64,000 nucleotides of DNA from Brevibacterium sp. W7.2. GTDB taxonomy: Bacteria > Actinomycetota > Actinomycetes > Actinomycetales > Brevibacteriaceae. Numbering within the stretch: the first letter of the stretch is position 1; each line of letters begins with the position of its first letter. The translations under genes were made by a program, and so were the position numbers. The stretch lies in NCBI RefSeq assembly GCF_018137945.1, contig NZ_CP073089.1, positions 744,001 to 808,000 of the forward strand, written 5' to 3'. Below are positions 16,704 through 30,580 of this stretch, in pieces. The notes beneath the pieces were generated by a model. That model did no database searches. It had not been told where the DNA came from and worked only from the letters and a program-made list of their open reading frames with translations.

Positions 16704-16776
16704 GCCTCCTTAGCTCAGTTGGTAGAGCACCGCTCTTGTAAAGCGAAGGTCGTCAGTTCGAGTCTGACAGGGGGCT
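16704..16776 (+). tRNA. tRNA-Thr, anticodon UGU
   Basis: 73 bases with a full cloverleaf. The acceptor GCCTCCT pairs with AGGGGGC including one G-U pair, the anticodon stem CGCTC/GAGCG-like arm carries loop CTTGTAA, and the T arm is GTCAG TTCGAGT CTGAC. CCA is not encoded. TACTAT at 16683-16688 is a likely -10. The 3' half is the integration site of the adjacent island and was restored by the incoming element, so the gene stays functional. Confidence 0.95.
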
Positions 16777-16777
16777 C
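16739..16777 (+). repeat. attL: Left attachment site (39-bp direct repeat in the tRNA 3' end)
   Basis: This stretch, from the anticodon loop to one base past the discriminator, is repeated without mismatch at 29103-29141. Identity ends abruptly on both sides. This is the standard signature of tyrosine-integrase insertion into a tRNA gene. Confidence 0.92.
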
Positions 16778-16785
16778 TCTCACCA

Positions 16786-16820
16786 GGCCGGATGATATTA
16801 CATCCGGCCGGGTTCGCTTT
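16786..16820 (+). terminator. Terminator after tRNA-Thr
   Basis: A perfect 9-bp stem GGCCGGATG/CATCCGGCC (16786-16794, 16801-16809) with a six-base loop, followed by GGGTTCGCTTTT. It lies inside the island, so the element supplies the tRNA's terminator. Confidence 0.75.
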
Positions 16821-16826
16821 TAAAGA

Positions 16827-17038: not shown

Positions 17039-17073
17039 TCACGACTGGATAAATTCCAGGAAGGTGAGAGGTC

Positions 17074-17376
17074 ATGCCAAAGATCTACACCGATGAGTTC
17101 AAGTAGTCAGCACTCGACCTCATCAACGACGGGATGACCCAGAAGCAGGTCTGCGCCGACCTCGGCATCTCGAAATCAGCCCTGCAGGCCTGGGTGCGTG
17201 ATGCACGTCTGCGTGAGCACGGCCTTGAGCCCGCGCATGACCCTGACGAGTCCCGCGCCCAGGCAGCAGCGCTCAAGCGCATCCGCGAGCTTGAGCGGGA
17301 GAACAAGATCCTCCGCGAGGCCGCAGCGTATCTCTCGCAAGCGAACTTGAAGCTCGGTGGTCACCACCCACAATGA
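17074..17376 (+). pseudogene. IS3 orfA with an early stop codon
   Basis: Encodes the helix-turn-helix/leucine-zipper half of an IS3 transposase. ATG 17074 follows AAGGTGAG and reads MPKIYTDEFK, then TAG at 17104-17106 stops translation after 10 codons. The frame continues with SALDLINDGMTQKQVCADLG (HTH) and a zipper-like IRELERENKILREAAAYL to the stop at 17376. A restart at ATG 17134 would lose the first part of the HTH, so function is doubtful. Confidence 0.85.
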
Positions 17377-18258
17377 TGTACCCGCAGGTACCGTGACCTT
17401 GCTGCCACCGGTATCCCGGTGGCAGTGACCTGCAGGGTGCTCGGCTTTACGAAGCAAGGGTTCTACCAATGGTGTGCACGTCCGGTCTCGGACCGGGACT
17501 GGGACGAGACACACCTGCTCAATGCCGCCTACGACGTCCATACGGACGATCCGGAGTTCGGACACCGGTTCATCGCCGATGAACTCCATGCTGCCGGCTA
17601 CGGGGCGTCTGAGCGACGTGTGTGGCGATTGTGCTCTCAGCAGCAACTGTTCTCCCACACGATCAAACGAGCCCGAAAACACGGCAAGAAGCCCGGCCCG
17701 CCGGTCTGTGATGACCTCGTCAAACGCGACTTCACCTCAAGCCGGATCAACGAAGTGTGGCTCACCGACATTACGGAGCACCACACGGATGAGGGCAAGC
17801 TCTACATGTGCGCGGTCAAGGACGTGTTCAGCAACAGAATCGTCGGATACGCCATCGCTTCGCGGATGAAATCGCGCCTGGCGGTCGCGGCGATCGAGGA
17901 TGCTGTGGCCCGTCGCGGCGGGCCTGGAACCGTGGCCGGTTGCCTCGTTCACAGCGACCGCGGGTCGCAATTTCGTTCCCGAAAATTCCAGCACGCTGTA
18001 CGGCATTATGGGCTCGTCGGGTCGATGGGTAGGGTCGGAGCTGCTGGCGACAATGCGGCGATGGAATCGTTCTTCGCCGTGTTGCAGAAGAACGTCCTCG
18101 ACCGTGGTCGCTGGGACACGCGAGCGAGGTTGCGGAAGGCGATCGTGCACTGGGTCGAGAGGACCTATCACAGGAAGCGTCGGCAGAGGCATTTGGGTAA
18201 ACTGACCCCAGTTGAATACGAACTGGTTCACCACGAGGCCGTCGCCCTGGCGGCATAA
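17373..18258 (+). pseudogene. IS3 orfB (DDE transposase) with a frameshift near its start
   Basis: The natural start ATG ATG TAC CCG CAG at 17373 overlaps the orfA stop. After five codons an extra base around 17388-17393 shifts the frame and leads to TGA. The remaining ~280 codons are open in the next frame and otherwise look complete, with the HTH_21 part and an intact catalytic triad: Asp at 17767 (LTDITEH), Asp at 17956 (HSDRGSQF) and Glu at 18064 (NAAMESFF), D-E spacing as in rve transposases. Re-initiation at GTG 17419 might still give nearly full-length protein. Confidence 0.82.
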
Positions 18259-18265
18259 ACCCCGG

Positions 18266-18290
18266 AGTCAACCAAACCCTCAGCAGTCCC
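18266..18290 (-). repeat. Right terminal inverted repeat of IS3 copy 1
   Basis: Exact reverse complement of the left terminal repeat, 25 of 25 bases. Confidence 0.92.
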
Positions 18291-18291
18291 A

Positions 18292-18405
18292 TTCGAAGAG
18301 CTGAAGCGATGTTCCCGGTGCGCAGCACAGCTCGCGTACGTCGACGATGATGGTGGACGAATGGTCTGCCCGAACTGCGGAGATCCAAAGGATCTCGTCG
18401 GCTGA
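18292..18405 (+). pseudogene. C-terminal remnant with a zinc ribbon
   Basis: 37 codons run from the IS edge to TGA at 18403. They read FEELKRCSRCAAQLAY and end with VCPNCGDPKDLVG, giving two CxxC knuckles spaced like a zinc ribbon. The 5' part is missing, cut by IS3 copy 1. The parent gene cannot be named. Confidence 0.5.
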
Positions 18406-18423
18406 TCAACGACGACGATGAGA

Positions 18424-18454
18424 GGGTGACGAGAGCGCGTGGTGTTCCGTCACC
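18424..18454. terminator. Hairpin at the 3' end of the serine recombinase gene
   Basis: AGGGTGAC and GTCACCCT pair across a loop of about 16 bases, overlapping the recombinase stop codon. On the minus strand it could end that transcript. Confidence 0.45.
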
Positions 18455-19019
18455 CTTTCTGATGCCGGTAGAGCGTTGCTCGAGACCAGCCAACGAGTTT
18501 TGCCGCCTCCGCCGCGGTGCGACCCTTCGCCCGTTCGGCATTGACGATGTCGAGCTTGCGCCGAATCACGTCCGGATCGGTTGGAGGACGACCGAACCGG
18601 GTGCCGCGCGCGCGAGCGACATCGACACCGGCTTGCACCCGTTCGGCGATGAGTTCACGCTCATAATCCGCCAGCGTCCCGAGCAGCCCGATCATAAGGC
18701 GCCCGGTGGGAGTGGAGGAATCGATGCCGTCGACGACAGACCGGAGGCCGACGTCGCGGTGTGTGAGGACGTCGACGGTCTTGAGGAGGTCCGGCAGAGA
18801 ACGGCCAAGCCGATCGAGTCGCCACACGACGACAATGTCGCCCGGTTGAGCGTAGGCGAGGAGATTCCTCATCTGGGGACGCTTCACGGCTGGCCGAGAC
18901 CCGGTGATGACATCGGAAAAGATGTCGCGTCGCTCAACGCCACAGTCTTCGAGCGCTGAGACCTGGAGAGTGGAATCCTGCTGCTTCGTTGAGACGCGGG
19001 TATAGCCGATGAGTCGCAT
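18450..19019 (-). CDS. Serine recombinase, resolvase/invertase family
   Basis: 189 residues, the normal size of small serine recombinases. It starts MRLIGYTRVSTKQQ, with catalytic Ser10 and Arg8, and carries WRLDRLGRSLPDLL with conserved arginines of the active site. A long dimer helix ends near residue 140 (GLLGTLADYERELIAERVQAG), followed by GRPP and a C-terminal HTH (AAEAAKLVGWSRATLYRH). ATG 19019 is the start because the family motif begins there. It could resolve cointegrates or invert DNA; no paired crossover sites were recognised. The gene looks intact. Confidence 0.92.
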   Translation of the reverse strand: MRLIGYTRVSTKQQDSTLQVSALEDCGVERRDIFSDVITGSRPAVKRPQMRNLLAYAQPGDIVVVWRLDRLGRSLPDLLKTVDVLTHRDVGLRSVVDGIDSSTPTGRLMIGLLGTLADYERELIAERVQAGVDVARARGTRFGRPPTDPDVIRRKLDIVNAERAKGRTAAEAAKLVGWSRATLYRHQKG

Positions 19020-19240
19020 GCGACCAGTATGACCGAGCGGAGGGGCACGGGTGAGCGAGAGTCTTGGAAAGGCACAACTTGTAGAGACTGTGCAGGTGAT
19101 TCGAATCGGGGGATTCAATCAGTTGGACTGGTGGTTATGGTGGTGTCTCACATAGTCGTTTTTCATGAACTGTCTCACCCGCGGGGAGTCTATGGTTTGA
19201 AAAGACACTCCGAAGCGCACGAGTGGCGTTGCAGAACGAA

Positions 19241-19252
19241 TAGCATGTTCCT
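19241..19252 (+). promoter_or_regulatory. -10 element of the HicAB-like pair
   Basis: TAGCAT at 19241-19246, six bases before ATG 19253, with no Shine-Dalgarno sequence. A leaderless start is likely. Confidence 0.4.
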
Positions 19253-19459
19253 ATGAAACCGAAGTTGGTTGAAAAAGTTCGTGAGGAACTCTTGTGCCGA
19301 GGGTGGCGAAATGTCCGGAGTCAGGAGGACGGGTTCCAATTATGGGAAGATATGGACGGTAATAGACTTACTTTGCCGTCCGGCTACGGCGAAGTAAGTT
19401 CCGCTGTGATAGTTCAGGCTTCGAAGGTTGCGGGGCTGGATCCGAGAGCAGGCGGCTGA
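19253..19459 (+). CDS. HicA-like small protein, candidate toxin
   Basis: 68 residues with the layout of HicA mRNA interferases: a first helix (LVEKVREELLCRGW), two or three strands including GNRLTLPSGY, and a last helix ending KVAGLDP. HicA normally has a catalytic His in a GSHH-type turn; here that place reads SQEDGFQLW with no His anywhere in the protein. Either the mechanism differs or the toxin is inactive. The gene overlaps the HicB-like gene by one base (TGATG). The HicA label rests on size, layout and neighbour, so it is tentative. Confidence 0.45.
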   Translation: MKPKLVEKVREELLCRGWRNVRSQEDGFQLWEDMDGNRLTLPSGYGEVSSAVIVQASKVAGLDPRAGG

Positions 19460-19884
19460 TGGTGGAGGAACTACGAGTAGTCGCTTTCCGAGAGGGCAAG
19501 TGGTGGAGCTTTTCTCTGCCAGATCTGAGCATTGCTTCGCCAGTATCTCCTGAGCTGAAGTTGATCCCGATTGGACAGAGCGCCAGGGCTACCTCCGTCG
19601 GGAGAGCTGCGGAGAAGCTTGCTTCAGTTTGGACTGGAAGGGCATCTCAAGATTTCACTGCTACAGTAAATTTTCAGCTTCCACGTCATATGGCTGATGT
19701 GCTCACTCGAGCTCGAGAGCTTGAAGAGAAGGTGCGGAAAGACCAGGAAGAGGTTGATCACCTTTACCGGCAGGTAATCCGAAAACTTCTCGCTACCCGC
19801 ATGGCGAAGACGGAAGTGTGCGAAGTGACAGGACTCTCAGCGAACGTAGTGAAATCACTCCTGCTGGAACAGGTAGAAGACTAG
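19459..19884 (+). CDS. HicB-family antitoxin-like protein
   Basis: 141 residues. The N-terminus, VVAFREGKWWSFSLPDL, then ARATSVGRAAEKLASVW, matches the degraded RNase-H-like HicB domain of actinobacterial HicB proteins (WW..EVPEL, ..QAR....E.MAR). Next comes a strand/helix TATVNFQLP, a charged coiled-coil-like stretch (RARELEEKVRKDQEEV) and a C-terminal HTH-like segment (MAKTEVCEVTGLSANVVKSLL) that could bind the operon's own promoter. Antitoxin role is inferred from domain order and coupling with the upstream small gene. Confidence 0.58.
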   Translation: MVEELRVVAFREGKWWSFSLPDLSIASPVSPELKLIPIGQSARATSVGRAAEKLASVWTGRASQDFTATVNFQLPRHMADVLTRARELEEKVRKDQEEVDHLYRQVIRKLLATRMAKTEVCEVTGLSANVVKSLLLEQVED

Positions 19885-20048
19885 CCCCGTCCCTCCGAAC
19901 TGTTATCGGATCGTGACATTGTTCCGACGAGAACGCTCATTGAATTCACATAAAGTTCTTATAGTCAGAGAGTGCTCAACACTGAGGTTGGGCGGGCATC
20001 ACTGGTGCGAAAAACCGTTGGTGATCTTGCTGGAATGAGGAGTTGCAA

Positions 20049-20447
20049 GTGTTTCGAGTATGTGCGGCAGTGAGCTCGGTGGCCTGCGTGTGGGCGGCCC
20101 ATGTGCTGCACGCCTACGCCAATGCGGATGAGGGTAACGTGGCGGTGAATGAAACACTCGCAGCCATGTGCTTGATGGTGGCGGCTACGCTGGTCGTCGC
20201 TTCAACTTCCAACGCGAGGCGAAACAGGATTGAATTGCGTATCTTCGAGCTGACGATATTCGTCCTCGCGATTCTCGCGGCGGCTTTCTTGTTGGTGATT
20301 GCGAACGCGAGTGGTGCCCCCTTAGTTAGCGTCATTGCGCTAACTGCACTTTTGCCGCTATTAGGACTCGCGAGTGTGATAACGATCGTCATTGCTGTGG
20401 TGACTCTTGTTGGTGATCGAAGGCAGTCATCGAGGGCAACGTCCTAA
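20049..20447 (+). CDS. Small membrane protein upstream of the PLA2-like gene
   Basis: 132 residues and almost entirely hydrophobic, with about four membrane helices (near residues 5-25, 42-58, 68-92 and 97-125) and a short basic tail. No known domain. GTG 20049 was chosen because GAGGAG ends six bases before it; TTG 20043 would sit on the RBS. The secreted PLA2-like gene follows 55 bases later on the same strand. A second PLA2-like gene in the island also has a membrane-protein neighbour, so an immunity or export role is a reasonable guess, no more. Confidence 0.7.
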   Translation: MFRVCAAVSSVACVWAAHVLHAYANADEGNVAVNETLAAMCLMVAATLVVASTSNARRNRIELRIFELTIFVLAILAAAFLLVIANASGAPLVSVIALTALLPLLGLASVITIVIAVVTLVGDRRQSSRATS

Positions 20448-20502
20448 TAACAGTTTTGCAACCTCTGCAGGCCTAACCAATGGAGATTAGAAGGGTAGAT
20501 CC

Positions 20503-21576
20503 ATGCGTCAATGGCTCTTGAAGCGATGCTCTATAGTTGCAGGATTGGTCTTAGTCGGAAGCGCTGGAGTGGCTACTTCAGTTGAAGCGAATACGCCCCT
20601 CGTCGGACAACCAATGTTGATTACTAGCCAGAGCGATGAACCCCCAGAAACAGGAGGTGACGGTGATCCGATCGAGCAAGACTTTACTCTATTCGATGCG
20701 GTCGTCGCCAGCCCCGGGAATGCTGACAGGTTCAAAAACAGAACTGTGAACTTCACTCTTCCGGCGGGTTGCTCAGGACAAAATGGTGCAACGAAGTACT
20801 CTTGCGATGGGAAAGAATTCTCCTTTACCGCGTCAGCATTCGCGGATGATGGCGTAGAGATGGTCGCGACGGGTCGTATAAGCGGAACGTCGATTGTGGT
20901 GAAAGCGGAGTTCATCCCTAGTGGTTATATTAGTCAGGATCTCACTTTTACGGTTTATGCTGTCGAGGCGGGTGTAGCTGGAGGAATCACGTCTGGCGAG
21001 ATCAGTCAATCTGTGATCGAGATGACTAAGTCGGATGCGGGAATATTGACCGAGACGGAGCTGAATGCTGAAGAAGAAGAGCTGAAAGATGCTTTCGACG
21101 AGGGTGACAGCGGAGAGGTGGCAGCGCGCACCGGTGTGAGTCCCTATCTTTCTGCTAGCCGGCCCTCAAAGGTCGGTATCCCGAGTACTTATGTTTGGTG
21201 CAGTTTCTACGATCGACCGAGATACAAGAGATGTCAGCCGCCTCGATTGCACGATTACTGTTCTTGGTCACCAGACCGTCCGGTTGTGTATGCGGGAAGG
21301 ACGTCAAGAACGGTCGACTTCCGTGGACCTTGCGCGAGGCACGACATGGGCATCGCGAAAATTCTTAAACAAGGGGGGACCGTAGGCACCAAACGAAGCA
21401 AAAGAAGAACTGCCGATCGGGTATTTCGTGATCGTATGTATCAAAATTGTTCGAACGCATTTTACCAAAGTACTAGTTCTGGAAGAGCTCTGAAGTCAAA
21501 CTGTCGATCAATAGCTTCAACCTACTATCGTGTAGTTTCGGGTGTTACGAACCGCTGGAGTGGTAAGGGAGCCTGA
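20503..21576 (+). CDS. Secreted protein with C-terminal prokaryotic phospholipase A2-like domain
   Basis: 357 residues. A signal peptide covers ~residues 1-30 (positive KR, hydrophobic core, cleavage near VEA). Residues ~40-180 are probably beta-rich with no recognised domain, and ~180-215 is an acidic linker. The last ~120 residues resemble bacterial PLA2 (PF09056 type): DYCSWSPD, then a Cys before the catalytic pair in CARHDMG (His280, Asp281), and the partner helix TADRVFRDRMYQNC. Such enzymes cut the sn-2 ester of phospholipids with Ca2+. The usual HDFGYRN is altered to HDMGIAK, so activity needs testing. ATG follows GAAGGG. The A/T-rich codon use differs from the chromosome. Confidence 0.72.
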   Translation: MRQWLLKRCSIVAGLVLVGSAGVATSVEANTPLVGQPMLITSQSDEPPETGGDGDPIEQDFTLFDAVVASPGNADRFKNRTVNFTLPAGCSGQNGATKYSCDGKEFSFTASAFADDGVEMVATGRISGTSIVVKAEFIPSGYISQDLTFTVYAVEAGVAGGITSGEISQSVIEMTKSDAGILTETELNAEEEELKDAFDEGDSGEVAARTGVSPYLSASRPSKVGIPSTYVWCSFYDRPRYKRCQPPRLHDYCSWSPDRPVVYAGRTSRTVDFRGPCARHDMGIAKILKQGGTVGTKRSKRRTADRVFRDRMYQNCSNAFYQSTSSGRALKSNCRSIASTYYRVVSGVTNRWSGKGA

Positions 21577-21594
21577 GTAGTTCGCTACGATCAG

Positions 21595-21630
21595 GAAGTG
21601 GGGTCTTTGCGTGCGCGAAGACCCCACTTC
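21595..21630 (+). terminator. Terminator after the first PLA2-like gene
   Basis: A perfect 13-bp stem, GAAGTGGGGTCTT with AAGACCCCACTTC, loop of ten bases, 19 bases after the stop codon. Confidence 0.75.
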
Positions 21631-21692
21631 TATGTCCGAAACTGAACTGAGCCTCTCGGGACTTCGAATGGTGCTCGCGAAGGTTTGTTGAA

Positions 21693-21900
21693 GCGTGTTT
21701 GGACAATTCGGTCGGATCTCTGTTCTTTGTGGAGTGTTCATGCAGCCCGGAGTTGCCGAGGACTTTGTGTTGTCGATCCCGGTAGGGCCTAAGGTGATCA
21801 CCGGCAGGGTGTTCCTTGCGCTGTGCAGTGGCTCCACCGGTTGGAGAGGAAACGCCGCGCCACACGATGACGGTGGCGACGCTGACCGTCCCACTGCTCT
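21693..21900 (-). pseudogene. Strongly decayed copy of the relaxase-like C-terminal region
   Basis: Between about 21750 and 21895 the sequence aligns by eye with 22240-22380, sharing blocks such as TAGGG(C/T)CT(A/G)AGGT, GTTCCTTGC and GCGCCA(C/G)ACGATGACGG. On the minus strand it still reads WRGVSSPTGGATA where the better copy reads WRGVSDQTDAATA. Frames are broken by indels. It is a second, older relic of the same gene family. Confidence 0.55.
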
Positions 21901-22044
21901 TGAGGGGGCCGTCTGGTTCGGCCTTACCCCGATTTACCAGCAGTTCGCGCTTCCGAGATAGGGCGGATCTGCGATCGCGAGCTTCATGGTGGACTCCTCA
22001 GGATTCGAATTGTGTGACGGTGCGAGCGTGATTTCGTGACGGAT

Positions 22045-22772
22045 TCAGGACGGACCGTTGGGGTTTGGACTGTGGGTTTCTGACGAGGGTGGGGTGGTTG
22101 AGGATGGCACCGGCTGTGCTGGGCCGGAACGACAGTCGTCGAGCGCGTCGAAGGCGGGTTCGGCAGCCACGCTCTCCCAGTCGATCGGGTCGGGGGTCAA
22201 GCCGGCCGCGGTGTTGTCATCGTCGGCGATTTCGAGTGGTGCAGGCTCGTCGACGAGACTCTGCAGTCGGTCCCAATAGGGTCTGAGGTAGTCGCGATAG
22301 TTGGGTTCCTTGCCGAAGGCGGTGGCTGCATCGGTCTGATCGGAGACCCCGCGCCAGACGATGACGGCGTCCACGACATCGTCGCGACGAGGGTGTGACG
22401 CGAGGCGTTGGGTGAGGTGGACGAACCAATCCGGCGGATCAGCTGCGAGAACGGCACGGCGAGCGGCGACCTGATCGGTGAGAGCAAGCATGGTGGTTTC
22501 CCACAGGCGAGACTGTTCGTCGGTCTCGGGGGGGCGAACCGGTGATCATTGCACCGGGGCCGGTGAGAGGTTGCGAGGCTGGACGTTGGCAGGAGTCGAT
22601 GATCGTCTCAGCTGTGTCAGCGTCGGTGAGCTCGCCGTGGAAGTTTTCGCGCGGATCCATGCTGACGAGCTGATGCCAGGAGGGATCCCATGGCAGAGTT
22701 TCGCGAACGGGTGGAGGAACGTCGCTGTGCAACCATTGCTGGGTGCGGGAGACTTTCGCAGCCCAGCTGAGT
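22045..22772 (-). pseudogene. C-terminal remnant of a large protein, possibly a MobF-type relaxase, with a frameshift
   Basis: The 5' side is cut at 22772 by IS3 copy 2. About 80 codons (RTQQWLHSDVPPPVRE, then FHGELTDADTAE) run to a C7 tract (22527-22533 as G on the plus strand); one extra base there shifts the frame. With six C the reading continues ETDEQSRLWETTMLAL into the downstream frame, which runs to TGA at 22047-22045. The segment VVDAVIVWRGVSDQTDAATA followed by DYLRPYWDRLQSL resembles the helical end of actinobacterial TraA/MobF relaxases, and the tail is Pro/Ser-rich. The relaxase reading is tentative. Confidence 0.45.
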
Positions 22773-22825
22773 GTCATGCCCCGGGGATAATAGAGGCTGG
22801 GAGATTGGAAGAAGGAGATTCTCTC

Positions 22826-23137
22826 TTGCCAGTGAAGTACACCGACGAACTCAAGGCGCGTGCCGTCGAGCTCGTCATCCATGCCCAGGCCGATCCGGAC
22901 ACTGCGAACGGGGCAATCACCCGTGTCGCGAAAGAACTCGGGTTAAGCAAAGAGACCCTGCGAGTCTGGGTTCGCAAGCACAAGGAATCCGGCGAAGCCA
23001 CACCGACTGAGTCAGTCGACCTGGAAACGGAGAACCGCCGGCTACGGGCTGAGCTGGCTGAGGCGAAACGGGCCAATGAGATTCTGCGCCGAGCGTCGGC
23101 TTTCTTCGCGGCGGAGCTCGACCGCCCATCCAAGTGA
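22826..23137 (+). CDS. IS3 orfA, transposase helix-turn-helix subunit
   Basis: 103 residues from TTG 22826, eight bases after GAAGGAG. The start reads KYTDELKARAVELVIHAQ, the HTH is NGAITRVAKELGLSKETLRVWVRKH in part, and the C-terminal zipper is LETENRRLRAELAEAKRANE followed by ILRRASAFFAAEL. It is typical and intact, and it ends in the usual TGA overlapping the start of orfB. Confidence 0.88.
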   Translation: MPVKYTDELKARAVELVIHAQADPDTANGAITRVAKELGLSKETLRVWVRKHKESGEATPTESVDLETENRRLRAELAEAKRANEILRRASAFFAAELDRPSK

Positions 23138-24059
23138 TCGTCGCCTTCATCGACGAGAACAAATACGAGTTCGGAGTCGAACCACAATCGTGCGCGCCCT
23201 GTCCGGGACTGCTGCACGGATTGCTGTGAGTTCGTATTACGCGTACAAGAAGCGCCGCCCTTCCGCTCGTGCTCTGCGGGATGCTGCACTCAGGGTCGTC
23301 ATCAGGGACGTCTATGAAGCGAACTACTCCTGCTACGGGGTGCGGAAGTTGTGGCGCGCGGTCAACCGCGACTACGCCGACCGGTTCGGGTCGATGGCCC
23401 GTTGCACGGTGGAGCGGTTGATGCGCCAGTTGGGCATCGACGGGATCCGGCGGAGACGGAAGCGTCCGAAAACGGCCTCGGCCAGGGCTGAGGACTGCCC
23501 GGACGACCTTGTTGATCGTGAGTTCACAGCACCGGGCCCGAACTGCGTCTGGGTCGCCGATATCACGTACGTGCCGACGCAGGCTGGGTGGGTGTACGCG
23601 ATGTTCATCCTTGATGTGTTCACCAGGGAGATCGTGGGCTGGCAGGTGACGAACCATCTGCGGGAGTCGCTGGCCAGGGACGCTTTGACGATGGCGCTAG
23701 CGGCGAAATTCCGGGCTGGTGAAGATGTGTCGGGGCTGGTCCACCACAGTGGCCGCGGCGTTCAATTTCGGTCGATTCGCTATGGCGAGGCTCTCGCGGA
23801 ATCCGAGTTCGTTGCGTCGGTGGGATCGCGCGGAGATTCGAATGACAATGCGATGGCTGAGGCTCTGAACTCGGTGTACAAGGCTGAGCTGATCGACAGA
23901 CGGGTCTGGTCAGGGTTGATCGAGGTGCTCGCGGAGACGTCTGCGTGGGTGGCCTGGTACAACCAGGAGCGGTTGCATTCAGCGATCGATTACCGTCCGC
24001 CGTACGAGGTCCATTCGGAATGGGTCAACCAGTTCGCGGCAGAACCCGTGGCTGCTTAG
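23134..24059 (+). pseudogene. IS3 orfB (DDE transposase), frameshifted and with a catalytic Asp lost
   Basis: GTG 23134 overlaps the orfA stop and opens IVAFIDENKYEFGVEP; about 17 codons later (near 23183-23195) the frame shifts, and the rest is open in another frame. Catalytic residues: first Asp is present at 23559 (VADITYV) and Glu at 23859 (NAMAEALNS), but the second Asp is replaced by Gly at 23751-23753 (HHSGRGVQF where HHSDRG is invariant). Even after programmed frameshifting the enzyme should be dead. The C-terminus YNQERLHSAIDYRPP is normal. Confidence 0.88.
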
Positions 24060-24101
24060 GAAACCAAGAAGAGGAGCCTCTAAGAAACCCGGAGCTTGAC
24101 A

Positions 24102-24263
24102 TTCATCGGAACTCCCGGCACCACCACCGCCACGGTCACCGCACCGCCCTGGCAGCTGTTCAAGGACTGGAAGGGCAGGAGCCCGCGCCTGCGCGCATTC
24201 ATCAAGGGTGCACCGCGCGATCTCACCATCAGCAACGTCTCGGTGCAGGGCGCACGGGACTGA
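24102..24263 (+). pseudogene. C-terminal remnant of a phage structural protein
   Basis: 53 codons from the IS edge to TGA at 24261. Reads FIGTPGTTTATVTAPP, then WQLFKDWKGRSPRLRAFIKG and ISNVSVQGARD. Its place 11 bases before a holin gene and its composition suggest a tail or minor virion protein, but the parent cannot be named. The 5' part was lost at IS3 copy 2. Confidence 0.45.
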
Positions 24264-24274
24264 GAGGACTCATC

Positions 24275-24748
24275 ATGGAATTCAACCTCGACATCTGGCA
24301 GATCATCCAGCTCTGCGTCTCCACCGTGTTCCCCCTCCTCGTCGGCCTCGTCACGAAGCTCTCCACCTCTGGTGGGGTCCGGGCGGTCCTGCTTGCGGTG
24401 ATCGCTCTCGTCACTTCTCTGGGAACCGAGGCACTGGCGGCCAACACTGCCGGGCAGGTCTACGACCTCGGGCAGGGGCTCATGACGGGTCTGACGTCGT
24501 TCCTCATCGCCGTCGGTATGTACTACGGCCTGTGGAAGCCCACCGGCGCTGCTGTGGCCGTCCAGGCGGTCGGATCGACCGGAGCCGCCCCTGCCGATCA
24601 GATCCCCGGCAACTGGTCCGGTGCCGACTCGGACGAGGTTGCGCCCCTCGAGGATGACGGTAATGAAGACCTCGACGAATCCGACGACCTCGGACTCACC
24701 GAGCCCGACGCTACCCCGCCTGCTGAGGGTTACGAACCCCGCCACTGA
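24275..24748 (+). CDS. Phage holin-like membrane protein
   Basis: 157 residues. Two to three membrane helices lie at about 8-25 (IIQLCVSTVFPLLVGLV), 33-52 and 66-86 (GLTSFLIAVGMYYGLW), followed by a ~70-residue acidic, disordered tail. This layout, and the position after a virion-protein end, fit actinophage holins, which permeabilise the membrane at lysis. No endolysin is nearby. ATG 24275 lies after GAGAGGA. It has high-GC codon use, unlike the A/T-rich cargo genes around it. Confidence 0.65.
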   Translation: MEFNLDIWQIIQLCVSTVFPLLVGLVTKLSTSGGVRAVLLAVIALVTSLGTEALAANTAGQVYDLGQGLMTGLTSFLIAVGMYYGLWKPTGAAVAVQAVGSTGAAPADQIPGNWSGADSDEVAPLEDDGNEDLDESDDLGLTEPDATPPAEGYEPRH

Positions 24749-24757
24749 CACAACTCA

Positions 24758-24786
24758 GCCCCGTCGCTCACACCGAGCGGCGGGGC
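24758..24786 (+). terminator. Terminator after the holin-like gene
   Basis: Stem GCCCCGTCGCT with AGCGGCGGGGC (one G-U pair), seven-base loop, followed by GTTTCGTCG. Confidence 0.75.
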
Positions 24787-24865
24787 GTTTCGTCGTAGCT
24801 GAAGCTGGTTGAACCTACATAAACTTGTGCAATAATGACAACTCGTAGACGTTGCAGGGGGCCAG

Positions 24866-25093
24866 GTGGGGTACTGGAAGAGGCACCAGAAGCCTGAACT
24901 CGAAAGCGTTCTACAACAGTTCCATGAAGCTGGGTGGACGATTGAGGACCCGCCTAAGTACTACACGGTGAAGTGCCCCTGTGGGGACCATATGAGGCAG
25001 ATTCACCTCACCCCGAGCAACCGGAACTACTCAAACCAAGCACTGAGGTGGCTGAACCGCCAGGAGTGCATGCACCCCCAGGAGCAGAGATGA
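24866..25093 (+). CDS. Small HicA-like protein with Cys/His cluster, candidate toxin
   Basis: 75 residues from GTG 24866, with the G-rich RBS GCAGGGGG upstream. Layout is helix (ELESVLQQFHEAGW), strands, KCPCGDHMRQIHLTPS, then helix (SNQALRWLNRQ) and ECMHP. The strand-helix order and the ....GW....HLTPS pattern resemble HicA. The Cys-x-Cys-Gly-x-His and a C-terminal Cys/His may bind zinc. I recall similar two-gene modules in actinomycetes but cannot search. It overlaps the next gene as ATGA, so the two are coupled. Confidence 0.5.
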   Translation: MGYWKRHQKPELESVLQQFHEAGWTIEDPPKYYTVKCPCGDHMRQIHLTPSNRNYSNQALRWLNRQECMHPQEQR

Positions 25094-25410
25094 AACTCAT
25101 CGGAATTGGCATGACGTTGCATGTCGATGGTGACGCCCGTGACTTTCTGCGCGAACAGTTCGACGCGGTGATGGAGGAGTTGCTGTTCCTCGAAGCTCGC
25201 GACAAGATCATCATGGACCCCGCGGTATCTGTCGACCTCGCCGCCGGCGACATGGAGATCGAAGTCGCGGTCGAGGCCGAGACAGCTGAAGAGGGTGAGC
25301 AGAAGGCCCGCCGTGAGATCGCGAAAGCCCTCGAAGAGGCGGGCAAGCAGGAGAATCGATTGCCGTATGTCAACAGTGGGAACCGCAGCGAGCTTCTCGA
25401 GCTCGCCTGA
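25090..25410 (+). CDS. Partner of the HicA-like protein, candidate antitoxin
   Basis: 106 residues; ATG 25090 lies within the upstream stop (ATGA) and GGAG precedes it. The sequence alternates strands and helices: IGMTLHVDGDARDFLREQF, AVSVDLAAGDMEIEVAV, then a charged helix ETAEEGEQKARREIAKAL. The second part looks like the HicB-type beta-beta-alpha half. It is acidic, as antitoxins often are. No DNA-binding domain is visible. Function is inferred only from coupling and layout. Confidence 0.48.
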   Translation: MKLIGIGMTLHVDGDARDFLREQFDAVMEELLFLEARDKIIMDPAVSVDLAAGDMEIEVAVEAETAEEGEQKARREIAKALEEAGKQENRLPYVNSGNRSELLELA

Positions 25411-25417
25411 CACATAG

Positions 25418-25460
25418 ACGAATCGGCCTCCACCACGTGAAGCGGTGGGGGCCGATTCGT
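25418..25460. terminator. Strong terminator hairpin after the second two-gene module
   Basis: 17-bp stem (ACGAATCGGCCTCCACC against GGTGGGGGCCGATTCGT, one G-U pair), nine-base loop. It is symmetric enough to work on both strands. Confidence 0.8.
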
Positions 25461-25611
25461 CATTCACGTTTGATCCCGTAGGGGTCGTCGTACTATCGCC
25501 CTCGGCGAACTATGGAGCGTCTCTCCGCTGGTGCACACGTTAGGTCGTCTCACGACTGGCGCATTGTGATCCCAGCCGGTATTGGTCGGCTCGCTCGTCA
25601 TGTCGCACTCA

Positions 25612-25863
25612 TCAGCTGCGGATGCGGGGCTCGGATTTCGACTTGCCTCTACCACTGAGGAGAAGTGCCGTCCAGATCACCGAGCCGAGGATGAACGGCG
25701 CGCTCACCAGCCAGCTCAGCAGCGTAAAGGCAGTGACTGTTATCCACCCGTCCTCAGCGGTGTTCGCCCACACCGTCATGGCAACGCTGCCCACTAGCAT
25801 CAGTGTCGCTACGCTAAGCAATGACAAATATGCAATTTTCAGGATTTTTCTCTTCGGGATCAC
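25612..25863 (-). CDS. Small two-helix membrane protein coupled to the second PLA2-like gene
   Basis: 83 residues. Two hydrophobic segments, about 12-32 (LSLLSVATLMLVGSVAMTVW) and 42-68, with basic ends, so both termini are probably cytosolic. Its ATG at 25863 lies inside the stop of the PLA2-like gene (ATGA overlap), which makes the two a coupled operon. No domain recognised. It is not visibly similar to the membrane protein at 20049. Candidate immunity protein by position only. Confidence 0.7.
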   Translation of the reverse strand: MIPKRKILKIAYLSLLSVATLMLVGSVAMTVWANTAEDGWITVTAFTLLSWLVSAPFILGSVIWTALLLSGRGKSKSEPRIRS

Positions 25864-26399
25864 CAGGGGTTGCCCTTTCCTTTGTAGTGCTTCTTACCGC
25901 CGATTCGCACAGCCTCGAAGTAAACCACTGCAACTGTCTTGCAAACGAATACTTCCTTTTTCCTCTTGTTGCATATGCTTTTCATATTCTCGCGGAATCT
26001 CGCGTCGCAGACGTTCCTGTTGGTCTTCGAGTTCTTCCCGTAGCACAGATCGTGGTTATCACACGCTGGTTTGAATATTTTGTTCCATTTCGCCGCTGCC
26101 TTCTTCAATTGCTTCGGCGTCGAGCACCCGTTGGGCTTCGCGTATGGTTGCAGGACGATCGGACCGAGCGAGTCTGAACCATAGTAGTCCTCAATCAGAG
26201 CATCCTCGGAGATATCACCGTCGACCTCGACGCCCTCGTCCTTCAAGGTCTGCAATGCCGCACTCAGCTCCGATATGGCATCACGGTCGACAGTGTCAGG
26301 CTCGGCAGCACTGGCGGGAGCACCTGTGAGTGCTGCGGTGAGAACAACTGCGATCAACGAAGCGACTACTAGTCTAAGACGGTGAGGTCCAAATTTCAT
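25860..26399 (-). CDS. Secreted phospholipase A2-fold protein
   Basis: 179 residues. A signal peptide (RLRLVVASLIAVVLTAALTG, cleavage near ASA-AEP) is followed by an acidic region (~35-75) that could act as a propeptide, and then a Cys-rich C-terminal domain. The catalytic motif is CDNHDLCYG, with His116 and Asp117, close to the CCxxHDxCY of classical secreted PLA2; RNVCDARFRENMKSIC supplies the disulfide-linked second helix. The Ca2+ loop is less clear (PNGCSTP). ATG 26399 gives the best signal peptide; AGAAAG upstream is a weak RBS. Likely phospholipid hydrolase outside the cell. Confidence 0.75.
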   Translation of the reverse strand: MKFGPHRLRLVVASLIAVVLTAALTGAPASAAEPDTVDRDAISELSAALQTLKDEGVEVDGDISEDALIEDYYGSDSLGPIVLQPYAKPNGCSTPKQLKKAAAKWNKIFKPACDNHDLCYGKNSKTNRNVCDARFRENMKSICNKRKKEVFVCKTVAVVYFEAVRIGGKKHYKGKGNPW

Positions 26400-26546
26400 G
26401 GGGTCAACTTTCTGCACTTGACTCTAGATGCAAGAAGACTCTCGCAGAGATTCCAGGCGTGCACATCGCACAAAAGTATGAATTCCCTCTTCTCGAGTCC
26501 AAGGACGCCGCTATGCGCGCAACACTCGACGCCGGACCCCGACGCA

Positions 26547-26586
26547 CGAAGCGGCCCCCACCGTCACCACGGTGGAGGCCGCTTCG
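26547..26586. terminator. Hairpin similar to the one at 25418
   Basis: 18-bp stem (CGAAGCGGCCCCCACCGT with ACGGTGGAGGCCGCTTCG) with a four-base loop. The sequence resembles the 25418-25460 hairpin (shared CGGCC.CCACC), so both may come from the same phage. Confidence 0.65.
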
Positions 26587-26620
26587 TCGTACTTGAGGGC
26601 TTTCGTAACCTTCGACTGCC

Positions 26621-26713
26621 GACATCGTCACCCTCCGCGGATGCACCCTCGACAAGAGCAGGTATCAGGGCGACCCGTACTGGCGGGCGAAACTGCTGCG
26701 GGACAACGAGTGA
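26621..26713 (+). pseudogene. Possible C-terminal remnant of a phage gene
   Basis: 30 codons from 26621 to TGA at 26711: DIVTLRGCTLDKSRYQG, then PYWRAKLLRDNE. The frame is closed just upstream by TAA. The residue pattern looks like real coding sequence, and it lies directly after a phage-type terminator, but the family is unknown. Confidence 0.3.
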
Positions 26714-26888
26714 GGTTCTCGTGCCCACAATTCGCCCACAGTTGCCCACATATACGCCGTGGTACGTAGTGGTTCATGGGGGTGCCAACGGCGAGAATTC
26801 AACGATCCGAGCCCTGCCCTGCGCGCCCACCCCGGCTCAAGTCCCGCTAATTGGTCAAGTCGCATCAAGTAGCGGGACTTGAGGAGGT

Positions 26889-27233
26889 TCATGAATGCAG
26901 ATAAGCAGCACCTTCGACCCACTCGAGGTCACGAGTTTCACCTGGATCAAGTGGGGGCCGTGAATCATACCTCGCGATTAGCACACTATCCTTTTTCGTG
27001 CCCGAACAGACCATTGCAAAGATTTCGATGAGGCGCGGAGGTGGAATCTGATCTCGCTTGGCCCAGCTCAACGTTTCATCAAGCGTGGCCTCGGAGGATT
27101 CAAAAACAGCGACGGAGGTGAGGTCTTGCGAGTCATCATGTTGGCCGTGCCAGAACGCCACTCGAAAAGCATCAACCTCTCCCTCGCGCCGTACATCGCG
27201 CTCGTCGATCAATTGAAAGCCGTGATTTTTCAT
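26889..27233 (-). CDS. Small cytosolic protein of unknown function beside a secreted-protein gene
   Basis: 114 residues from ATG 27233 (TTG 27236 possible), with GAGG upstream. No signal peptide or membrane segment. Mixed alpha/beta pattern: FQLIDERDVRREGEVDAFRV, LTSVAVFESSEATLDETLSW, RLIEIFAMVCSG. No domain is recognised. It follows the secreted protein gene by 57 bases on the same strand, an order seen in effector-immunity pairs. Position is the only basis for that idea. Confidence 0.6.
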   Translation of the reverse strand: MKNHGFQLIDERDVRREGEVDAFRVAFWHGQHDDSQDLTSVAVFESSEATLDETLSWAKRDQIPPPRLIEIFAMVCSGTKKDSVLIARYDSRPPLDPGETRDLEWVEGAAYLHS

Positions 27234-27290
27234 CAATACTCGCCTCAGCTAAGCGGAGTCATATTGACTGCCGAACCAATTTTCCAGGAA

Positions 27291-27968
27291 TCAGATCTTC
27301 CTCCAGATGCTCTTCGATTGGGAAGCTGTTCGCTTTCCCGACAAAGAGGCATGACTTGTGATGATCCAGGTGCTAGTGGCATTCCAAAATCCCGTGCCCC
27401 GTCCGCCATTTGAGCCAACAACTGGAGTGTAGTATGGTGTGGAAAACTGTCCAGTGTTAGCCGTGACGGTAATCCGTGCATCACTGTATGCTCTGCTCTG
27501 AGCTTTTCCTGGCCTCGAGCTCGAGCTGGCGGCGGGATACAAGCTTAAAAGCCCCTTGACACGCAAACTGACTTTGGTGTTCACTCCCTTTGACTCGCAC
27601 TTGTAACGAGTCTTGTAAATGGCTCCGCCAGCGCCCGAAGAATAATGCGGGTTGTCAACTCTTGCAGTGCACTTAACATAACGAGCATTTTGCTCTTCGG
27701 CTGACTCTGCGCTTCTGGCTGCGACTTGACCGCCGATCGTCACAGTCGTCTCGACGTAGTCACGAGAATCGTTCGCTTGTCTTAGGAGTTCTTCTTCCGG
27801 CATGTTCAATGCGCTGGTCTCGACTCTTTCGGCCCAAGCTTCGTATTGCTGCATGGAGGACGTACTAATTTGCGCGTCCTCATCTTCTTCTGCCGCGACT
27901 GGTGAAGTCGTGCCAGCGACTAGGAGCAAAGAAGCGCTGATGGCCAGGACTGTCTTGAATGGTTTCAC
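27291..27968 (-). CDS. Secreted protein of unknown function
   Basis: 225 residues from GTG 27968, with GGGA six bases upstream; this start puts a proper signal peptide first (KPFKTVLAISASLLLVAG, cleavage near VAA-EED). An acidic stretch (~35-100) may be a propeptide. The C-terminal part is Ser/Gly/Thr/Lys-rich and basic with two Cys (VKCTARVD, YKCESKG), and looks beta-rich (YSDARITVTANTGQFSTPYY). I recognise no family. Its position beside two PLA2-like exoproteins suggests another exported effector. Confidence 0.65.
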   Translation of the reverse strand: MKPFKTVLAISASLLLVAGTTSPVAAEEDEDAQISTSSMQQYEAWAERVETSALNMPEEELLRQANDSRDYVETTVTIGGQVAARSAESAEEQNARYVKCTARVDNPHYSSGAGGAIYKTRYKCESKGVNTKVSLRVKGLLSLYPAASSSSRPGKAQSRAYSDARITVTANTGQFSTPYYTPVVGSNGGRGTGFWNATSTWIITSHASLSGKRTASQSKSIWRKI

Positions 27969-28302
27969 TGCATTTCCCGTTCTTATAGGTCCTCCCCGGA
28001 AGCGACAGTGCGACCGAGCGTCGGAGTTGGGTGAGCCGATACTAAGCAGCAGAAATCTCTCCTTGGTCGGAGAATGTGGGCCGGGGTCCAAACTGTGGCC
28101 AAAATGAGATGTTCGACGACGTTCGGGGAGATTGCCTCCGTCAGGTGATTGCGCCTGCAACATCGACCAACGCACGCTTGGATGTGTGACGCTGTTGAGA
28201 CGTATCAAGGCCATGCTGAATTAGTGACAGCTAGAAGGTTCATGTCCGTGCCGTGGTCCAAGGTTGCAGGGTCCGCATAGAAGAAGAACCAGGAGGATCC
28301 AA
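27969..28302. other. Divergent regulatory region
   Basis: 334 bases between the secreted-protein gene (minus) and the HTH gene (plus). It should hold promoters for both. The right end has a strong RBS (AGGAGG, 28291-28296). No gene supported. Confidence 0.45.
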
Positions 28303-28737
28303 TTGACCACCTACGACGAAGCAATCCAGCACGCCGGTCGTGCCCTGGCAGAGGGGTTCCGCCGCCTTCAGGAAGGCACACCCCGCGAAGCCGCGGAACG
28401 CGCCTACACCCCGGGAGGGCCGAGCGTTGAAGAACTCGAAGCTCGGATTGTCGCCTGGCGCCGCGTAATCAGTGTTAAGGAAAGACGGGTGAGCAAGCAA
28501 GTGAGGAGGCTACTTTCCGATGACGAGGTGGCCGAGCGGATTGGTTGCTCGAAATCTAAGCTTCAGGCGAATCGTGCCCTTGACCGCGGAGATGGCGGTG
28601 ATCGTGTCCCCAAGTGGATTCAAGCTGGAAACTCATGGCGTCCGCGAACGCGAGGTACAAGGCAGTCTGCGGTCAACGAGTGGCTCGACCGACATGAAGA
28701 AGGTCGGATTTCGGGCAATGAAGGGACGCCAAGTTGA
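28303..28737 (+). CDS. Helix-turn-helix DNA-binding protein of the element
   Basis: 144 residues. TTG 28303 is set by a perfect AGGAGG six bases before it. The N-terminal helices (TTYDEAIQHAGRALAEGF, REAAERAYTPGG) are followed by a linker and a C-terminal HTH (LLSDDEVAERIGCSKSKLQA) with a basic wing-like tail (NSWRPRTRGTRQSAVNEWL), the plan of phage excisionase or repressor-like proteins. It overlaps the excisionase start and probably controls or assists it. Exact role is unknown. Confidence 0.65.
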   Translation: MTTYDEAIQHAGRALAEGFRRLQEGTPREAAERAYTPGGPSVEELEARIVAWRRVISVKERRVSKQVRRLLSDDEVAERIGCSKSKLQANRALDRGDGGDRVPKWIQAGNSWRPRTRGTRQSAVNEWLDRHEEGRISGNEGTPS

Positions 28738-28901
28738 TTAATCTCGAACGTTTGCTCACTGCGAAACAGGTGGCAGAAATACTGAATTGTTCGGTACAGC
28801 ATGTCTACCGACTTCGTGGGCGGGGAGATCTCCCTGCCATAGCTGTAGGAGGCATGTATCGATACTCACCGGAGGAGCTTCGCCGGTATATCGATCGGTA
28901 G
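28734..28901 (+). CDS. xis: Excisionase, HTH_17 (MerR-like) family
   Basis: 55 residues starting TTG 28734, which overlaps the previous stop; AAGGGA lies seven bases upstream. The sequence is a classic excisionase/AlpA-type winged HTH: LLTAKQVAEILNCSVQHVYR, then LRGRGDLPAIAVGGMYRYS and PEELRRYIDR. Such proteins bend attR/attL DNA and steer integrase towards excision. Its place 200 bases from attR fits. The gene is intact while its integrase is not. Confidence 0.85.
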   Translation: MINLERLLTAKQVAEILNCSVQHVYRLRGRGDLPAIAVGGMYRYSPEELRRYIDR

Positions 28902-28956
28902 AACTCCTTGGGTCGCCAGTCTTCGCAGAGGGACGTTGGCCTGAGCAAGGTTGCGG

Positions 28957-28971
28957 CACGGTTACGACACG
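28957..28971 (+). repeat. Candidate integrase arm-type site, right
   Basis: CACGGTTACGACACG, one base different from 16827-16841 and in the same orientation, between xis and attR. The 28902-29102 stretch otherwise has no gene and is the expected attR arm. Confidence 0.45.
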
Positions 28972-29102
28972 GAATCGCGCTCGATTCGTCACCGCAGGGC
29001 CACCAGGGGGGGCTTCCCCGCAAGTCCTGAAAGCATGCATATTTGCAGGTCAGAGGAGAGCCAATGCAAACCAAAGAGAACCATGAGGGACATTCTGCCC
29101 TA

Positions 29103-29141
29103 TAAAGCGAAGGTCGTCAGTTCGAGTCTGACAGGGGGCTC
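29103..29141 (+). repeat. attR: Right attachment site (39-bp copy of the tRNA-Thr 3' end)
   Basis: Identical to 16739-16777. It contains the T arm and acceptor 3' strand only, so it is not a second tRNA gene. The chromosome resumes directly after it. Confidence 0.92.
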
Positions 29142-29147
29142 ATTCAT

Positions 29148-29183
29148 CAGGGGCGGCACTCGGGGAATCGGGTGCCGCCCCTG
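29148..29183. terminator. Terminator just right of the island
   Basis: 12-bp stem CAGGGGCGGCAC with GTGCCGCCCCTG, loop of 12 bases. Before the island arrived it would have followed tRNA-Thr; now it may serve the MFS gene from the other side. Confidence 0.7.
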
Positions 29184-29221
29184 AGCGCATTCCGCCCTTC
29201 AGTGTTCGCGCGATCGCGCCC

Positions 29222-30580
29222 TCACCCGCCCGTCGACGAGCGCGCGGTGCGGCGGTCGTCCCGGCTCGCTCGACGCTCCCGGCCGGCGGCGCGACCGGGC
29301 AGCCCGATCCGCCTGGCCCACACGAGCACCCAGAGCGCGCCGGCGATCGCGAAGACACCGGTGAAGAGGACCCCGAAGCGCAGGGACGCGATCGCGATGA
29401 CGAGCGAGATGAGCGTCGGCCCGGCGAGCTTGCCGCCGTTGGAGAAGATCGCCCAGATGCCGAGGAACCGTGCGCGCCCGACGGCGGGGGAAAGGTCCGC
29501 CCCGATCGTCATGTTCACCCCCGCTCCGAGGCCGTTGCCGACGGCCATGATGCCCACGGACACGATCATGCCGATGAGGCTCGGCGCGCAGACCATGACG
29601 ATGAACCCGGCACCGAAGATCGTCAGGCAGGCGACGAGCGTGGCGACCCGGCCCAGGCGGTCCTTGATGTAGGCGCCGAGGAACATGAAGACGAGTTCGA
29701 GCCCGGCGCCGAACGCGATGAGCAGCGAGATCTCCGACTCGTGCAGTCCGATCGTCACTCCCCACAGCTGGATGACGACCGGCTGAGCAGACCGGGCGAT
29801 CGTCAGCGTCATGATCGAGATCCCGACGAGGATTACCGCGCCCCAGCGCACATCGAGCCGTGCCCGCCGAGGCGGGGCGGAGGGGACGCCGACTGCGAGG
29901 TCGTCGGAGGTCGGGGCCACCGCCTCGGTGGAGTTGGCCTCCTGAGCCACCGCCTCGGCGGGGTGTGCCTGCGCCTTCCCAGTGCTGCCGCCGACCCGCG
30001 TGCCCGGGTAGTCGGGGATGCGCGCGCTCGGCAGCGCCATCACCCCGATCGCGGCGAGCCCCGCGACCCCGGCGAAGACGAACACCGACCACAGCGGGAA
30101 GACGAGCATGAGGCCGGCGCCGATGATCGGTCCGAGGAGGTTGCCCACCCGCATGCTCCCGCCGAGCGCCGTCATCGCCTTCGCGAGATCGGCGGCGGGC
30201 ATCACCTCGGCGACGACGGCCTGCCGGGCCAGATTCCACACATCGGAGACCGGGGCGAAGAGCATGAGCGCGACGGTGTAGACGATGAGCGAGGCCGGCG
30301 ACTCCCAGACGAACGCGGCGACGATGGCCCCGAGGACGACGATCGCGGTGAGCGTGGCGACGACCATCGCACGGAAATCGCCGAGGCGGTCGATGAGCAG
30401 CCCCGCCGGCACCGTGGCGAGCAGCGAGACGGCCCCCATGACCCCGACGACCGCCGCCGCGAACGCCGCCGTCGCCCCCAGCGACAGGGCCCCGAGCACG
30501 AGGACCGGGAGGATCGACCCCAGCCCGACCGCGAAGAGCAGCGAGGGGATGAGGACCGGCCAGAGGATGGGTTTGAGCAC
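29222..30580 (-). CDS. MFS transporter
   Basis: 452 residues with about 12 membrane helices in two halves. The MFS motif A-like loop between TM2 and TM3 reads GLLIDRLGDFRAM, and the matching loop in the second half YIKDRLGRVATL. A ~50-residue cytosolic linker lies in the middle, and the C-terminal tail is Arg-rich. Drug or metabolite export is likely but the substrate is unknown. GTG 30580 is six bases after TACACT (on the minus strand), suggesting a leaderless mRNA. Confidence 0.87.
   Translation of the reverse strand: MLKPILWPVLIPSLLFAVGLGSILPVLVLGALSLGATAAFAAAVVGVMGAVSLLATVPAGLLIDRLGDFRAMVVATLTAIVVLGAIVAAFVWESPASLIVYTVALMLFAPVSDVWNLARQAVVAEVMPAADLAKAMTALGGSMRVGNLLGPIIGAGLMLVFPLWSVFVFAGVAGLAAIGVMALPSARIPDYPGTRVGGSTGKAQAHPAEAVAQEANSTEAVAPTSDDLAVGVPSAPPRRARLDVRWGAVILVGISIMTLTIARSAQPVVIQLWGVTIGLHESEISLLIAFGAGLELVFMFLGAYIKDRLGRVATLVACLTIFGAGFIVMVCAPSLIGMIVSVGIMAVGNGLGAGVNMTIGADLSPAVGRARFLGIWAIFSNGGKLAGPTLISLVIAIASLRFGVLFTGVFAIAGALWVLVWARRIGLPGRAAGRERRASRDDRRTARSSTGG

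Follow-up and report, generated by a model that had tools for sequence, protein, structure and literature searches.

Why should the gene for a small secreted protein of the phospholipase A2 (PLA2) fold share its last nucleotides with the gene for a tiny membrane protein? The question is posed by a window of 64,000 nucleotides, the whole stretch of DNA analysed here, from a genome of the genus Brevibacterium (3.86 Mb, one contig). The answer that we consider likely is that the two genes, P0001 and P0002, encode an antibacterial secreted toxin and its membrane-embedded immunity protein.

25860..26399, minus strand: P0001, secreted PLA2-fold protein, 179 aa (ORF and translation, PF09056 match)
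25612..25863, minus strand: P0002, two-helix membrane protein, 83 aa, proposed immunity protein (ORF, linkage to the PLA2 gene)
25860..25863, minus strand: GTGA in which the PLA2 stop and the membrane-gene start overlap (sequence)
25873..25880, minus strand: candidate ribosome-binding site GGAAAGGG for the membrane gene (by eye)

An earlier reading of the window from its letters alone (the sequence-only reading) had described an exported protein of 179 residues with the motif CDNHDLCYG and a Cys-rich second helix, its stop overlapping the start of an 83-residue two-helix membrane protein in an ATGA. Coordinates, length, motif and signal-peptide-like N-terminus of the first protein all hold, as do the length and the two helices of the second. 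The overlap of stop and start is also real, but it reads GTGA (25863-25860); the ATGA version is found in Rothia (L022) and in two further genomes, G350 (L075) and G132 (L078). An alternative start of P0001, a GTG at 26417, would give 185 aa.

Three parts can be recognized in P0001.

26307..26399, minus strand: Sec-type signal peptide, roughly residues 1-31 (translation, judged by eye)
26145..26303, minus strand: acidic pro-segment, about residues 33-85 (alignment of seven relatives)
25872..26129, minus strand: PLA2 domain, residues 91-176 (alignment and predicted helices)

P0001 passes the curated cut-off for prokaryotic phospholipase A2 (PF09056; 35.5 vs 29.4 bits) and stays just under that for group XII PLA2 (PF06951; 33.5 vs 34 bits). 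Its Cys residues lie at 92, 113, 119, 131, 143 and 153. In the alignment of seven relatives C113, H116, D117, C119 and Y120 are invariant in the PLA2 domain, and the His-Asp dyad of CxxHD (H116, D117) is kept in 7/7 P0001-type homologues. The pro-segment has a GDISE(E/D)AL-like motif in the same seven sequences, and would be cleaved and inhibitory. An AlphaFold model (mean pLDDT 75.3, pTM 0.71) predicts two pro-segment helices (residues 39-54 and 65-73, in a block with pLDDT 59-95) and three in the PLA2 domain (96-119, 128-144 and 150-166). By a profile built from the seven relatives, the best solved relative is the Streptomyces violaceoruber PLA2 (PDB 1faz, 1it4, 1kp4, 1lwb), with 1faz matched at 1.1e-8 and 4aup at 2.2e-8. 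Foldseek also puts 1faz on top, and aligns one 4aup chain over 67 columns at 2.3 A, but the E value for 1faz is only 0.17, so the sequence profile carries more weight than Foldseek in the fold assignment.

The PLA2 fold is widespread among toxins. It was named as a toxin domain, Tox-PLA2, with PDB 1kp4 as reference (Zhang et al. 2012, PMC3482391). P0001, a small stand-alone exported protein, departs from both motifs given there, DxC[ST] and CxxHxxxYxN. At the first, Asn-Gly-Cys-Ser is found in 6/7 homologues and Asp-Gly-Cys-Ser in 1/7; at the second, CxxHxxxY is kept in 7/7 and the final N is missing in 7/7. Because Asn replaces the Tox-PLA2 Asp in six of the seven, metal-dependent catalysis by proteins of the P0001 type is not certain. 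The long N-terminal delivery module of polymorphic toxins, with its exchangeable C-terminal toxin, is absent, the 179 aa of P0001 holding a signal peptide and pro-segment only ahead of the PLA2 domain; a long N-terminus is present in some distant relatives. For P0001, the Pfam and NCBIfam matches up to E=1 include no LXG or TslA-type lipase domain. Residues 90-176 also match phrog_1158 (26.7 bits), a family labelled tail assembly chaperone; the label may mislead, and the family may include a PLA2-like domain.

The partner belongs to no named family that we could find. Neither Pfam nor NCBIfam gives a match to P0002 up to E=1, and the PHROG families, lysis and holin families included, give none up to E=0.01. 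Two helices are predicted, at residues 4-35 and 40-74, in a weak model (pTM 0.39), and between them lies a conserved turn.

25744..25755, minus strand: EDGW turn, residues 37-40 of P0002 (alignment)

E37, G39, W40 and W51 are invariant across the seven Brevibacterium membrane proteins, three of these four residues being at the turn; when the Rothia partner is added to the alignment, E37 alone stays invariant in the turn. Because positive residues stand at both ends of P0002, the turn is predicted to face outside, where the enzyme would act.

We asked how regularly the two genes occur together in 60 genomes of Brevibacteriaceae, one per species, counting transmembrane (TM) segments with a simple hydropathy window. 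P0001 homologues are present in 7/60 genomes, the window's own included, the other six at 45-60% identity. At all seven loci a two-helix gene starts between -7 and +2 nt from the PLA2 stop, so that the partner gene lies immediately downstream, as in polymorphic toxin systems. Loss of the membrane gene from most close relatives of the exoprotein would have spoken against the sequence-only reading; the gene is present after every one of the seven intact homologues. Pairwise divergence of PLA2 and partner is correlated (r=0.68, exact permutation p=0.010 in a Mantel test on 7 pairs only), a correlation that may reflect shared species descent.

The window encodes another secreted PLA2 with a membrane neighbour.

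20503..21576, plus strand: P0003, secreted PLA2-type protein, 357 aa, CARHDM subtype (PF09056, 40 bits)
20043..20447, plus strand: P0004, small multi-helix membrane protein, 134 aa, TTG start, neighbour of P0003 (ORF)

P0001 and P0003 had been called unrelated. They are not: both pass PF09056 and they share 22% identity (E=0.003), which makes them divergent members of one family. The P0003 type was found at 9 loci in 8/60 genomes, own included, and a small gene with 4-5 TM segments stands directly upstream or downstream at 9/9. These amount to fewer than nine independent cases, because L067 appears almost identical to L070, and L068 resembles L069. A blastp comparison among nine of the 4-5-TM partners, from seven genomes and with the close copies in L067, L070 and L069 left out, gave weak matches only, except between the two of G011, and a search with P0004 did not find the partner of G017; these partners are not one recognisable family. 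Four genomes have distant P0004 relatives (24-29% identity) at a single chromosomal site, where no adjacent PLA2 was seen and where we take the neighbours to be of LacI and siderophore type. At one locus (L065 610-2849) a P0003-type PLA2 lies between two multi-helix proteins with 73% mutual identity.

The proposal that a phospholipase and a membrane partner form a selected module is supported for Brevibacterium, where each type of PLA2 does lie beside a small membrane protein (2 TM at 7/7 P0001-type loci, 4-5 TM at 9/9 P0003-type loci). Most relatives of the PLA2s in other genera lack such a neighbour, and the partners differ, with 2 TM in one case and 4-5 TM in the other. As a control, the same adjacency test was applied to the 30 best-scoring PF09056 loci in 394 genomes of the class, a non-random sample. 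Qualifying small membrane neighbours were found at 3/30, all of them upstream 5-TM ORFs, and at 1/30 in a run with slightly different limits. A small membrane neighbour as a general trait of PLA2 genes was rejected on this result. Fisher's test of 16/16 against 3/30 gives p=1e-9, with rows that are not independent because of shared phylogeny. The neighbour is also missing in 13/15 weaker relatives from the order, being present in G350 and G132, and at 10/12 distant loci on genome contigs, being present in Rothia and Frigoribacterium. Since the control loci and weaker relatives are mostly without it, the partnership belongs to particular lineages and not to the fold. The partners outside Brevibacterium are no more than possible homologues of P0002, the Rothia partner being 16% identical.

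Some distant PLA2 domains have another architecture. They end proteins that we take to be YD-repeat-like in Nonomuraea and in a Verrucomicrobia MAG. In G132 (L078 13-2186) a presumably YD-repeat-like protein with a C-terminal PLA2 is followed by a 4-TM gene with an ATGA overlap; no following 4-TM gene was found for a similar protein at L031 147-3911.

The control also bears on a more ordinary explanation, in which the exported PLA2 serves feeding by releasing fatty acids from lipids, and its membrane partner helps to anchor the enzyme or to import the products. Secreted PF09056 proteins are common (over the cut-off in 76/394 class genomes), and 27 of the 30 best class loci lack a small membrane neighbour, as ordinary exoenzymes would; in this the family entry that contains the S. 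violaceoruber enzyme differs from P0001. A shared operon would suit co-regulation. We nevertheless regard a feeding enzyme as unlikely. The partners differ between the two PLA2 subtypes, the distribution is patchy (7/60), and the copy in the window lies in an island, that in G044 near phage genes. It is further opposed by membrane genes that remain without an enzyme, or intact beside a broken one.

Matches to the membrane family were counted at E<=0.01. There are 28 in 20/60 family genomes: 7 by an intact PLA2, 2 by PLA2 remnants, 14 strong solo copies (E<=6e-21, without an adjacent PLA2) and 5 weak ones. The family is present in 7/7 genomes with a P0001-type PLA2 and also in 13/53 others, 8 of them by strong matches. 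The weak matches (G020, G022, which has a stop, G023, G024 and G025) are within the 28 and the 13/53, and outside the 14 strong copies and the 8/53. Five of the 14 strong solo copies are near-identical extended forms; L054-L056 share an identical core, as do L043 and L060. Among 396 genomes of the order, 18 have a match, 16 of them in the same genus and the other two weak. No intact P0001-type PLA2 without a membrane gene was found among the 60 genomes.

At four loci (G002, G005, L016 and L023) the PLA2 gene is broken and the adjoining membrane gene is intact. In G002 (L126 9858-10944), genes for a secreted-type protein of 209 aa and a protein of 144 aa sit between the two ends of the PLA2 gene, with the intact two-helix gene beyond. 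The upstream side with the signal-peptide end, and the last codons, are 91% and 94% identical to G044. The 209-aa and 144-aa proteins are possibly a further toxin pair. G005 retains a C-terminal PLA2 remnant as in G002, together with the membrane gene; the upstream match stops before the PLA2 start, and no 209-aa gene was seen in its ORF list. The two loci may share one ancestral event, and their PLA2 remnants were tallied as broken, outside the PLA2 genomes. Over residues 37-179, L016 (4678-6680) matches the window at 99% identity, and its membrane protein is identical to P0002; an insertion element, presumably IS3-type, replaces the region of the PLA2 signal peptide. The contig is filed under a Planctomycetota MAG, and is probably a mis-binned Brevibacterium contig. 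In Frigoribacterium faeni (L023) stops occur near the C-terminal end of the PLA2 frame, and a 68-aa two-helix gene follows. Two frames were left out of the counts: G010 C35, a fragment with stops, and G052 C31 (L015 10900-11200), a second PLA2-like frame of 128 aa without stops that has Pro at the catalytic His position, no signal peptide and no membrane neighbour. By its sequence, the latter appears to be a decaying or repurposed copy.

Membrane genes that outlast broken PLA2 genes are the pattern expected of a weapon and its maker's shield. Orphan immunity and cassette replacement, both familiar from polymorphic toxins, are represented by the 14 strong solo copies and by the G002 locus, with its secreted-protein pair inside a PLA2 gene. 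This asymmetry between PLA2 and membrane gene suggests toxin and immunity.

The genomic setting points to mobile DNA. A 12-kb element had been proposed around these genes, and its boundaries can be seen in a pair of direct repeats and a drop in GC content.

16739..16787, plus strand: left 49-nt repeat, the tRNA-Thr 3' half (begins within tRNA-Thr 16704-16777)
29103..29151, plus strand: right 49-nt repeat (94% identity to the left copy)
18450..19118, minus strand: serine DNA invertase/resolvase (phrog_125 DNA invertase, 195.1 bits)
24275..24748, plus strand: phage holin homologue (phrog_8269 holin, 92.3 bits, residues 114-213 of ORF 23945-24748)

The repeats are 12,364 bp apart, start to start, and GC in 1-kb bins is 52-62% from 17000 to 28999 against 65-74% in bins outside. 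Two transposase regions inside the island look IS3-like by eye; the label of the first is our assumption, and the second overlaps plasmid pieces annotated as IS3. When plasmid DNA was searched with window positions 16500-29500, five records matched in short pieces at 80-90% identity, four at the IS3-annotated stretch and one at the tRNA stretch. Flanks of the tRNA-Thr site were searched in 19 genomes, own included. The right flank lies about 1-3 kb from the same tRNA-Thr in G005, G009, G035 and G046, and 34-44 kb from it in G014 and G026. Because this spacing varies from about 1 to 44 kb in six relatives, the site takes up variable DNA, and it looks like an insertion hotspot.

A phage might have assembled such a pair for its own use, as a lysis or lysogenic-conversion module in which PLA2 helps to break the envelope and the two-helix protein acts like a holin or antiholin. 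The holin homologue of the island is 0.9 kb away from the pair. In G044 the pair adjoins an endolysin gene (phrog_1493), a minor tail gene (phrog_25212) follows at a distance of about 7.5 kb, and a two-helix gene of 76 aa lies in between. Against this, tblastn of P0001 gave no match in plasmids or in 50,697 phage records, and two pattern scans of IMG/VR found no homologue; an origin in phages or plasmids, as judged by similarity, was rejected on this basis. The absence of P0002 from the PHROG families argues in the same direction, as do the flanks of L009, L010, L012, L013 and L014, which by eye have no phage structural genes, and the solo membrane genes, which by eye have no adjacent lysis genes. 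We consider a phage module improbable, slightly more so than a feeding enzyme. None of P0001-P0006 matches a model of anti-phage defence (PADLOC) up to E=0.01.

The island encodes three secreted proteins (P0001, P0003 and P0005), each with a partner gene, and the third pair is located just upstream of the P0001 gene.

27294..28004, minus strand: P0005, third secreted protein, start uncertain (homologue comparison)
26889..27236, minus strand: P0006, 115-aa soluble protein downstream of P0005 (adjacent in 5/5 P0005 genomes)

P0005 is present in 5/60 genomes, with P0006 after it in each, and is truncated or interrupted in three of the five (G004, G026 and G047). The alignment of P0006 spans 113 of its 115 residues in the other four genomes.

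By analogy, the P0001/P0002 pair most likely works like TslA/TilA or EsxX/ExiCD of Staphylococcus aureus, built from other families. TslA is a secreted antibacterial phospholipase A; the immunity lipoprotein TilA neutralises it outside the cytoplasm, and relatives of TilA occur in immunity islands (PMC10730906). TslA differs from P0001 in that it is exported as a type VII substrate, has helper proteins and contains another lipase domain, and TilA is a DUF576 lipoprotein, unlike the two-helix P0002 (PMC10730906). EsxX/ExiCD provides polytopic membrane immunity against a membrane-acting extracellular toxin, with orphans in non-producers; unlike P0001, EsxX is a glycine-zipper depolariser and not a phospholipase, and ExiCD consists of two proteins (PMC12744356). 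The 2012 survey that named Tox-PLA2 gives no immunity protein for it in its table, and names only two immunity families with two transmembrane helices as in P0002, Imm-CdiI and Imm17 (PMC3482391). Imm17 has WxW and an Arg between its helices, in contrast to the EDGW turn of P0002 (PMC3482391). No homology of either family to P0002 was seen in the Pfam scan. A search of openly available journal papers turned up none that describes, in Brevibacterium, a PLA2 toxin paired with a membrane protein.

The following steps could connect these observations. First, the PLA2-type protein would be exported by the Sec pathway behind its acidic pro-segment. Second, removal of the pro-segment would free a disulphide-bonded His-Asp phospholipase, which would hydrolyse the membrane phospholipids of competing bacteria nearby. 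Third, the two-helix protein would sit in the membrane of the maker with its EDGW turn outside, and there either bind the enzyme or shield against it. The overlapping genes would hold toxin and protection together on mobile DNA, whether in a tRNA island or in a prophage. An animal secreted PLA2 inhibits several Gram-positive species, including one named Brevibacterium flavum (PMC3024238). This makes Gram-positive membranes a plausible target. The habitats of Brevibacterium include cheese rinds and skin, and the name Brevibacterium flavum is now used for a Corynebacterium.

One could instead imagine a PLA2 aimed at eukaryotes such as fungi or protozoa, with the membrane protein merely guarding the producer from its own lipase; PLA2 domains act as toxins in animal venoms, and fungi also have them in proteins that they secrete (Zhang et al. 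2012, PMC3482391). However, genomes that lack such a PLA2 would be expected to keep solo immunity-like genes mainly if non-producing bacteria are attacked, and we rate a eukaryotic target as the least probable of the alternatives.

An antibacterial role for the pair leads to a broader proposal, which we offer tentatively and hold with slightly less than even confidence. Brevibacterium and some relatives may possess a class of polymorphic exotoxins that are small, exported by the Sec pathway and independent of contact, each with a signal peptide, an acidic pro-segment, its own toxin part (two PLA2 subtypes, P0005 and the 209-aa protein of G002) and its own immunity gene. Such exotoxins would gather in tRNA islands and prophages and displace one another, with old immunity genes remaining. 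Proteins with 2 or 4 TM segments would halt the PLA2 toxins on the outward side of the membrane, and would be the first to be put forward as immunity proteins against this toxin fold.

If P0002 does protect its maker, a Gram-positive cell would survive its own secreted phospholipase by means of a tiny membrane hairpin and not a soluble inhibitor. The pair would then offer a small, tractable system for membrane-level immunity and for competition among Brevibacterium, and it gives a reason to seek overlooked small membrane genes beside other exported lipases. The two-helix family itself also has longer members. One of them (L054 1447-2094) is lengthened to 215 aa by a soluble C-terminal part and has no Pfam match, and such extended forms occur at five loci (L054, L055, L056, L043 and L060) in four genomes.
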